Part shown: in pieces, positions 2,678 to 5,894 of the stretch
Position numbering within the stretch: position 1 is the first letter of the stretch
Layout of the letters: every line of letters starts with the position of its first letter
Assembly: GCA_019313025.1 (NCBI GenBank)
Contig: JAFDCA010000639.1
Span: 1 to 9,541, forward strand
Reading direction: 5' to 3'
Source of the DNA: Deltaproteobacteria bacterium
Lineage (GTDB): Bacteria; Desulfobacterota; Desulfobacteria; Desulfobacterales; UBA11574
DNA length: 9,541 bases
Notes under the pieces: model-generated
Told to the model about the DNA's origin: nothing
Database searches by the model: none
What the model saw: the letters and a program-made list of their open reading frames with translations, nothing else
Translations under genes and position numbers: made by a program

Positions 2678-2920
2678 ATGAATGAAGAAATCAACGTCGA
2701 TAAGGTAATGGATTTGAAGGGTCTGCCCTGTCCCATGCCGATTTTGAAAGTGACTAAAGGGATTAAAGAAATTGAGATCGGGCAGGTTATTGAGGTTTTG
2801 TCAACAGATCCCGGGTCAATAAATGACTTCCCGTCCTGGGCCAGAACCCGGGGACACGAAATTCTGAAAACAGATCAGAATGGAGAAGTTACAAAATTTT
2901 ATATCAAACGCCTGGTATAA
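2678..2920 (+). CDS. tusA: TusA-family sulfur-transfer protein
   Basis: An 80-residue TusA/SirA-family protein, full length. The signature L-K-G-L-P-C-P-M-P-I (residues 13-22) contains the sulfane-sulfur-carrying Cys18, and the later D-P-G-S / W-A-R-T-R-G-H segment fits the two-layer alpha/beta fold. TusA proteins pass persulfide sulfur between rhodanese, DsrE-type proteins and acceptors in the cytoplasm. I chose ATG 2678 because AGGAGG lies at 2666-2671 with a spacing of 6; an open frame reaches further upstream into dsrE without a ribosome binding site. Co-transcription with the dsrE-like gene is very likely. This version is probably dedicated to sulfur metabolism rather than tRNA thiolation, judged by its context only. 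Confidence 0.92.
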   Translation: MNEEINVDKVMDLKGLPCPMPILKVTKGIKEIEIGQVIEVLSTDPGSINDFPSWARTRGHEILKTDQNGEVTKFYIKRLV

Positions 2921-4707: not shown

Positions 4708-5130
4708 ATGGACACCAGACAATGCGTTATTTGGATCATCATTCTTTACCTTTTCATGTTGGGTATTGTTGGTTGTGCAATGACACCGGAGAAATCATCT
4801 AATGCTAAATTTAGAATATCCAAAGAGGAACTAAAAGACCGTCTCGACGATCAAAACCTGATCATATTAGATGTTCGACGACCTCAAGATTGGAAGAAAA
4901 GCGGCATCAAAATCAAAGGGGCTATTCAAGAAAATCCATACAAATTCGAAAGCTGGCATTCTCGCTATCCCAAAACAAAGACGATTATACTCTACTGAGC
5001 ATGACCCAATGAGCATACCAGTGTCAGTTTGGCACGGAAAATGATGGACAAGGGATTTACAAAGATTTATGTTCTTAAAGGTGGATGGAATGAATGGATA
5101 AGAGCTAAATATCCTACCGAGACGCAATAA
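4708..5130 (+). CDS. Rhodanese lipoprotein with two in-frame TGA (selenocysteine) codons, U-x-U active site
   Basis: A predicted 140-residue exported rhodanese (sulfurtransferase). The N-terminus is a lipoprotein signal with lipobox I-V-G-C, so it should be anchored in the periplasm. One rhodanese domain follows: I-S-K-E-E-L (37-42), L-D-V-R (about 54-57) and K-G-G-W-N-E-W (124-130). At the catalytic loop the frame reads Y96-TGA-A98-TGA-P-N-E, where family members have Y-C-x-C-P-N-E. TGA codons are at 4996-4998 and 5002-5004, and after them the domain continues in the same frame with normal conservation to TAA 5128-5130. A SECIS-like hairpin lies at 5018-5037. I therefore read Sec97 and Sec99 rather than stops. 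A decayed gene is the alternative, but two chance nonsense codons exactly on both cysteines are unlikely. ATG 4708 is preceded by AGAGGTGAG. A gene caller would stop at 4998. Confidence 0.85.
5018..5037 (+). promoter_or_regulatory. bSECIS-like hairpin in rhodanese mRNA
   Basis: CC-a-GUGUC pairs with GGCAC-GG around the loop AGUUU (5026-5030), with one bulged A at 5020; one U·G pair is included. The loop has a G in its first two bases. It starts 27 bases after the first TGA and 21 after the second, both inside the 16-37 range described for bacterial SECIS elements, so one element could serve both codons. E. coli fdhF also has a single bulged base in this stem. Confidence 0.7.
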
Positions 5131-5318: not shown

Positions 5319-5894
5319 ATGATGGGCAACGCGATCAGGCTTCGAGTAAAAATCTACAAAATGATGTTATTTGTTTTTGTCTATGGAATCGTGGCAGTTT
5401 TTTTACCTTTGTCATCAAACGCTCTTTCCAAGAATCCATTGTCTAATGCAAATTTTCTGGAATTTAAGGATAAAAATACCGCCCCAGATTTCATGTTGAA
5501 CGATTTAGAAGACAACCCTATTCAATTAGAAGCCTTTCAGGGTAAGGTTGTTTTACTCTATTTCTGGACTACCTGGTGAGTCTGGTGCCGGAAGGAGGTC
5601 TCTTCCTTAATCAAACTATACAATGAATTCAAAAGTGAGGGATTTGTTGTTATTGGTATCGATGTGCGAGAGGGAAAGGAAATTGTAAAAAAATATGTTG
5701 ATAAGTACAAGATAACCTTTCCAATACTTCTGGATATTCACGGAAAAGTTGAAAAAAGTTATGGTGTTCGAGCCCATCCCGAGCATTATCTTATCAACAG
5801 GCGCGGAGAATTGATAGGCAAAACATTGGGCCCTAGGAACTGGATGAAAGGTATAAATCTTGATCTGATCCGGTTTCTCCTCGATCAAGATTGA
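5319..5894 (+). CDS. TlpA/AhpC-like thioredoxin-fold protein with in-frame TGA (selenocysteine), U-x-x-C motif
   Basis: A predicted 191-residue exported thioredoxin-fold protein of the TlpA/ResA/AhpC-TSA type. An N-terminal hydrophobic segment (about 15-30) ending near S-N-A is a signal peptide or anchor. The domain begins A-P-D-F-M-L-N-D-L (55-63) and K-V-V-L-L-Y-F-W-T-T-W (76-86). TGA 5577-5579 then replaces the first cysteine of the W-C-x-x-C motif, giving W86-U87-V-W-C90-R-K-E. The frame continues through V-V-I-G-I-D (110-115) and the cis-proline region A-H-P-E (152-155) to a final TGA at 5892-5894, which lacks a GC-supported hairpin. A SECIS-like hairpin follows the internal TGA directly. 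It would act as thiol-disulfide reductase or peroxidase beside the Sec rhodanese. The start is uncertain: ATG 5319 or 5322 have a poorly placed AAGGA. Confidence 0.85.
5590..5606 (+). promoter_or_regulatory. bSECIS hairpin in TlpA-like mRNA
   Basis: GGAAGG pairs with UCUUCC around AGGUC (5596-5600), the last pair being G·U. The loop starts 16 bases after the TGA at 5577-5579. The loop segment AGGUCU and its distance match, as I recall it, the E. coli fdhF SECIS (AGGUCU about 17 bases after UGA), whose GU is contacted by SelB. Confidence 0.82.

Follow-up and report, generated by a model that had tools for sequence, protein, structure and literature searches.

Two in-frame TGA codons in the loop of an NF041203-type rhodanese gene from a deltaproteobacterium: a probable Sec-x-Sec selenoprotein

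A rhodanese-like reading frame from a contig of an uncultured deltaproteobacterium that resembles sulfate reducers carries two TGA codons, one codon apart, at the positions that an initial annotation had taken to be the active-site cysteines. The question raised by this locus is whether both codons specify selenocysteine (Sec), so that the gene encodes a U-x-U selenoprotein, or whether one or both have another meaning. The DNA analysed, a stretch of 9,541 nucleotides, is referred to throughout as the window. The features of the gene itself were as follows.

4708 to 5130, plus strand: rhodanese frame of the NF041203 type, 140 codons plus TAA, with two in-frame TGA codons
4996 to 4998, plus strand: UGA1, at residue 97, the first of the two predicted Sec; all 106 family members have UGA or a Cys codon here
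5002 to 5004, plus strand: UGA2, at residue 99, the other predicted Sec; 101 of 106 family members have UGA here
5018 to 5037, plus strand: SECIS-type hairpin, CC A GUGUCA (GUU) UGGCAC GG
5021-5026 paired with 5030-5035, plus strand: upper stem of 6 bp, with the apical loop GUU at 5027-5029
5018-5019 paired with 5036-5037, plus strand: outer pairs of the hairpin, part of the same stem

The loop DNA, from position 4993, was TAC TGA GCA TGA CCC AAT GAG CAT ACC AGT, and the two TGA codons were the sole interruptions of the frame between the ATG at 4708 and the TAA that ends at 5130. When TGA was translated as U, the product had 140 residues and contained the loop Y-U-A-U-P-N-E-H-T-S, followed by K-G-G-W-N-E-W. 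Translation without recoding would give a 96-residue stub from the ATG, or 99 amino acids if begun at an upstream GTG. A lipobox-like sequence, LGIVGC, judged by eye, was found at residues 18-23 and suggests that the rhodanese is located in the periplasm. Several other frames of at least 90 codons in the window were also open under TGA read-through, so that mere openness proves nothing and the proof must come from homology. TGA was used as an ordinary stop in the window by the TlpA-like gene described below, and the other 12 genes checked ended in TAA or TAG. A tRNA scan of the window found none.

The read-through product matched the NCBIfam profile NF041203 (rhodanese_LYCAU, 'rhodanese-related (seleno)protein') with a score of 170.2 bits and an E value of 1.3e-50, the cut-off being 115, and Pfam PF00581 with 62 bits. 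All 37 members of the family alignment matched NF041203 with an E value of 0.001 or better. A 2026 review (PMC13188914) lists NF041203 as 'rhodanese-like domain-containing protein form 3', CxU, with one Sec and the accession TKB26178.1, and PMC9312934 lists the same accession as 'COG0607 form 2', also CxU. The window protein belongs to the same profile family and has the same loop with a predicted Sec at the second position, but its first loop position is also UGA, giving UxU and two Sec. The initial annotation had mentioned single-Sec rhodaneses; as the single-Sec family is already known from the two sources, the second Sec is the question.

The table in PMC13188914 also contains TsoB, a rhodanese/DsbD fusion selenoprotein (NF045694) with two Sec in a UxxxxU motif. 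A rhodanese domain with two Sec is common to both proteins, but the window protein scored 29.3 bits against an NF045694 cut-off of 805, and both the spacing and the architecture differ. A UxxU selenoprotein family with a diselenide bond was reportedly described by Shchedrina in 2007, which we take to be SelL, with a thioredoxin-like fold and an i,i+3 spacing of the Sec residues. Two nearby Sec that could form a diselenide would be found in both families; the window protein differs from the UxxU proteins in its rhodanese fold and i,i+2 spacing.

Canonical rhodanese sulfurtransferases have one catalytic Cys in a C-x4-R loop. Compared with the canonical rhodaneses L038 and L039, the window loop was two residues longer, had two chalcogen residues and not one Cys, and in the alignment had Thr where their loop has Arg. 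The description of Y-C-x-C-P-N-E as the common rhodanese loop in the initial annotation was appropriate for NF041203 but not for rhodaneses generally, since the aligned canonical sequences have a single Cys and a loop two residues shorter. The solved relatives found by profile included 6mxv, GlpE (1gmx) and BH2092 (3nhv), and the available text of a rhodanese-fold paper (PMC10135228) gave no loop lengths. The alignments disagree on which predicted Sec takes the canonical catalytic position, and the register, compared by sequence, is ambiguous. MAFFT alignment with the two canonical rhodaneses placed residue 97 opposite their Cys and left a two-residue insert, and the first loop position was aligned with the Cys place of BH2092 and of one domain of 6kvy-type chains, whereas an ungapped match to 6mxv placed residue 99 opposite its Cys.

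Contigs of GTDB genomes were scanned and yielded 41 loci, of which 35 were of the NF041203 type (10 UxU and 25 CxU); the remaining six (L036-L041) were different rhodaneses and were dropped. Further members came from a search of 15 locus genomes and of 389 genomes from the class to which G003 belongs. In the class search at most 10 candidates of each genome were scored, so that members may be missed, and 14 UxU were found among its 75 listed matches of at least 110 bits. Removal of nine duplicates, identical over the last 200 nt, from 115 family matches of at least 100 bits left 106 distinct members. The loops of these were 21 UxU (the window included), 80 CxU, one CxC (L057), three CxS or CxT (CxS in L082 and L090, CxT in L081) and one UxR (L087, with a short frame). 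L080, L087 and one L092 copy were assigned to their loop classes by hand. L088, in which the frame is split by a TAA, was left out of the 106, and G279, listed with one TGA in the class search, was left out of the regions examined.

Besides the window, 20 family genes spread over 18 genomes had the two-TGA loop, and a two-Sec loop, which the initial annotation had considered unusual, is not rare in this family. The homologues, which had been proposed as a check, had in every case either UGA or a codon for Cys at the first column, and UGA at the second in all but five; whenever the first loop codon was not UGA it was Cys (84 of 84 members) and never Trp. The other copies were also looked at for decay, and most were intact, with damage in L088 (a TAA in the loop) and L087 (UxR, short frame), whose genomes both hold several other copies. 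One of these genomes, the Nitrospiraceae MAG chromosome G021, had four copies, L021 and L085-L087, of the types UxU, CxU, CxU and UxR. At L092, two different CxU rhodanese genes lay near each other in one genome, one with C-C-D-U in place of Y-C-x-U.

In a set of 5.8 billion proteins, 52 of 61 matches, including the window's own entry (P0003), ended exactly at the first loop codon, although these records show where a product ends and not which stop codon is responsible. Five of the remaining nine ended at the second loop codon, one had W-A-W, one C-A-C, and two were of other kinds. Among viral contigs, 28 stretches fitted a pattern, and none encoded a relative.

In the tree of 37 members, the window clustered with L001-L004, all UxU, with a support of 100/100. 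The UxU label required six changes on this tree, two of which were forced by well-supported branches. A quick, weakly resolved tree of the 106 members, with the loop residues masked, required at least 12 changes at the first residue, and within supported groups, for example L073/L063 and L025/L026/L028, UxU and CxU genes stood close together. UxU genes lay among CxU genes in both family trees, and the second residue was kept as UGA in 101 of 106 members while the first residue switched. The relatives sharing both TGA codons included ones 63-69% identical to the window.

The initial annotation had also stated that conservation continues in the same frame to K-G-G-W-N-E-W. The frame was open to its TAA, and pN/pS, pooled over the 10 pairs formed by the window and L001-L004, was 0.297 for codons 30-96, 0.251 for codons 100-140 and 0.193 for codons 112-140; for the same DNA in the shifted frames, the values were 2.5 and 1.5. 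The region 3' of the UGA codons evolves as coding sequence in the rhodanese frame under purifying selection, and the statement was borne out.

A bacterial SECIS, according to section 5 of PMC13188914, has a loop of 3-9 nt that carries G within its first two places, a stem of 4-16 bp, a spacing of 16-37 nt and a minimum free energy of at most -7.5. The window hairpin conformed to this model in its 3-nt loop starting with G (GUU), its 6-bp stem, its distances from UGA2 (22 nt) and from UGA1 (28 nt), and its energy of -7.9 kcal/mol over the 42 nt after UGA2. It differed in that one hairpin lies within range of two UGA codons six nucleotides apart. Folding energy of the window segment alone was unremarkable (z -0.96, with 33 of 200 shuffles equally good), and Rfam at its gathering scores gave no match in the window, so that the hairpin call rests on the covariation found here.

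The loops of 36 sequences aligned over 75 nt with zero gaps. The stem had 83.3% of its cells paired, compared with 24-46% in slid versions, 20 two-sided changes and a covariation score of 0.248, values that none of 500 shuffles reached; the number of further pair types was reached by two of 500, and the number of pairs with two-sided changes, four, was equalled by 43 of 500. Two pairs were especially informative in the larger set. Pair 30-42, which joins the third positions of a Ser and an Ala codon, was paired in 21 of 21 UxU and 80 of 80 CxU members (U-A in 75, C-G in 22, U-G in 4), and pair 33-39 was paired in all 101 UxU and CxU members (C-G in 95, A-U in 6). Over the 102 UGA-bearing members, phi was 0.90 for pair 30-42 and 1.00 for pair 33-39, while the next best of 276 third-position pairs reached 0.31 and the median was 0.04, which argues against G+C content as the cause. 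Because both pairs join third codon positions, they are also not easily explained by amino-acid constraint.

Across members, pairing was poorly kept at the two outer positions of the stem and at its innermost pair. Three of the 21 UxU members (L021, L079 and L080) had a different best fold for the 42 nt after UGA2, and in another, L076, the best fold after UGA2 had only -6.1 kcal/mol. The stem was broken in the CxS and CxT relatives L081, L082 and L090. The CxC relative L057, with TGT where others have TGA, retained it, as would be expected if Sec had recently reverted to Cys. No separate hairpin for UGA1 could be shown. As the distance between the stem and UGA2 was fixed in CxU and UxU genes, one SECIS serving both UGA codons is the simplest reading.

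Sec machinery in the window's organism is predicted from the genomes of relatives, where SelA was present in 18 of 18 and SelB in 16 of 18 UxU genomes. All 10 UxU locus genomes had SelA above the cut-off, as did all of 10 other genomes, eight of them UxU. For SelB, 34 of the 35 locus genomes exceeded the cut-off, the exception being G019, a CxU genome, and so did two of 14 control genomes. Six of eight further UxU genomes also had SelB (E 1e-60), and none was found in G402 and G337; G033 belongs to both SelB sets, its UxU copy having been recognised later. A tRNA-Sec above the Rfam cut-off was found in 32 of 35 locus genomes, a cut-off that five of 14 control genomes also passed, and one of at least 55 bits in 29 of 35. 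Matches of that strength were present in eight of 10 genomes with a UxU first locus and in G033, making nine of the 11 UxU genomes tested; they were absent in G002 and G021. In G021, where SelA and SelB are present, a search of 16 kb around selA/selB found no tRNA-Sec.

The genes around the rhodanese bear on its possible function.

5319 to 5894, plus strand: TlpA/ResA-like thioredoxin-fold gene, a second selenoprotein candidate (W-U-V-W-C)
5577 to 5579, plus strand: TGA at the CxxC position of the TlpA-like gene (UxxC), TGA in three of the three relatives that cover it, L002-L004
3132 to 4430, plus strand: FadL/OMPP1-type outer-membrane protein gene, directly upstream also in L001-L004 (partial in L002)
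2678 to 2920, plus strand: TusA-type sulfurtransferase gene, in the same order in L001, L003 and L004
2107 to 2652, plus strand: DsrE2-type gene, in the same order in L001, L003 and L004
302 to 1117, minus strand: CbbQ/NorQ-type AAA protein gene, upstream of the MarR-DsrE2-TusA genes, and upstream of MarR in L003 too

The order FadL-rhodanese-TlpA was kept in L001-L004, the contig of L001 ending within TlpA, and was preceded by DsrE2 and TusA in L001, L003 and L004. In these three loci the interval between TusA and FadL was longer than in the window by about 2 kb and contained an extra open frame common to them. As for other neighbours, MarR was found in L001 and L003, CbbQ only in L003, and GAF and Usp only in L004. 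At an E value of 1e-8, the TlpA partner was present in L001-L004 and in none of the 37 other scan loci. The clade of the window would thus have two adjoining selenoprotein genes, and their predicted Sec would number three. For the TlpA-like gene, a stem downstream of its UGA was possible in the four sequences compared, but the predicted folds differed and no SECIS is claimed for it.

In two other members, the UxU rhodanese was fused to a multihaem c-type cytochrome (PF13447): L080:855-2483 on the minus strand in G244 and L089:1914-3593 on the plus strand in G033. A gene of the amino-acid-permease type lay directly before the CxU rhodanese on the same strand in 34 loci, with PF13520 in the representative L008:8519-9829 (plus strand), and is likely an operon partner of the CxU rhodanese. 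It was rejected as a general partner of the family, the cluster consisting of 34 loci that were all CxU and included no UxU gene, many of the flanks being short.

Taken as a whole, the locus is probably explained by a genuine exported, probably lipid-anchored, single-domain NF041203 rhodanese with two Sec, in which Cys-x-Sec has become Sec-x-Sec. The initial proposal that an exported, lipoprotein-like rhodanese is a selenoprotein with a U-x-U loop was upheld at the sequence level by the profile score of 170 bits, the 20 further genes and the hairpin. Several other explanations were considered. The two TGA codons could be lesions or sequencing errors in a former CxU or CxC gene, as the damage in L088 and L087 might suggest, but the same two codons recur in 20 other genes, some only 63-69% identical, pN/pS downstream is 0.19 and the hairpin covaries, so that decay is very improbable. 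Reading of UGA as tryptophan (code 4 or similar) would be in line with the database relative P0004, which has W-A-W at the two positions, though P0004 is most likely a code-4 gene call. With Cys and never Trp at the first column of the 84 non-UGA members, a TlpA-like gene in the window that terminates in TGA, and SelA and SelB in relatives, this reading can hardly be credited.

A further alternative is that only UGA2 is efficiently decoded as Sec, and that UGA1 mostly acts as a stop, a brake that responds to selenium, or is decoded by a near-cognate tRNA, the protein being mainly CxU-like or truncated. The spacing between UGA2 and the hairpin, fixed in CxU and UxU genes alike with UGA1 6 nt further off, is in its favour. 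So is the exchange of Cys and UGA at the first residue, seen in several branches, with at least 12 changes on the weak tree and six, two of them forced, on the 37-row tree. However, 28 nt falls within the limits of 16-37 nt that section 5 of PMC13188914 sets for bacterial SECIS elements, and the non-UGA first codon is Cys in all 84 members, as expected if UGA1 is Sec. This alternative is considered unlikely.

If both codons are Sec, SelB bound to the single hairpin would decode the two UGAs, which precede its apical loop by 28 and 22 nt. Residues 97 and 99 could then form a reversible diselenide, or a selenenylsulfide with substrate sulfur, in the periplasm. One selenol would accept sulfane sulfur of the thiosulfate or polysulfide type, or an oxidant, and the other would resolve the intermediate; the adjacent TlpA-like UxxC selenoprotein would re-reduce the Sec centre. 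Residue 97 is favoured as the nucleophile in the CxS and CxT relatives, where the first Cys is kept and the second is absent. The TusA and DsrE2 neighbours fit a sulfur relay, and the TlpA neighbour together with the cytochrome fusions would agree better with an electron-exchanging centre than with a plain sulfurtransferase; gene neighbourhood is the basis for the idea that TlpA is the redox partner. A sulfane-sulfur or redox role of the Sec pair is put forward only tentatively. A real UxU selenoprotein might instead handle metals, metalloids or oxidants or deliver selenium, as could be suggested by a loop two residues longer than in the aligned canonical rhodaneses and lacking their Arg, and by the two UxU members fused to multihaem cytochromes. 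The neighbours in the window's clade are, on the other side, of the sulfur-relay (TusA, DsrE2) and thiol-redox (TlpA) type, and this other role is likewise a possibility to which we give less than even weight. With respect to the full Sec-x-Sec proposal, we incline slightly to the view that one SECIS decodes two UGAs one codon apart and so produces an i,i+2 Sec pair, with a strained diselenide or a selenenylsulfide, that the first residue has switched repeatedly between Cys and Sec while the second stayed Sec, and that the centre is wired to a UxxC partner or, by fusion, to a multihaem cytochrome.

A bacterial selenoprotein with a rhodanese fold was known, and what appears to be new is an i,i+2 Sec pair within that fold. 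No report of a UxU rhodanese was found in open-licence main texts, and an earlier report may exist; none appears in the available portions of PMC13188914, PMC9312934, PMC1794560, PMC8318568, PMC2398784, PMC7539508 and PMC11227280. The literature found to combine UxU with selenocysteine concerned metal binding by SELENOP, apart from an unrelated paper on Salmonella.

The occurrence of CxC, CxU and UxU in one fold provides a natural series that could reveal what a second selenium adds to one active site, and the family is also a natural test of how closely spaced two UGAs can be and still be decoded by one bacterial SECIS. Since 52 of 61 matches in the protein set end at the first loop codon, most of the two-Sec subfamily may exist in databases as short stubs. 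Concrete redox hypotheses follow from the TlpA partner and the cytochrome fusions, for a family that the reviews cited list among the predicted selenoproteins.
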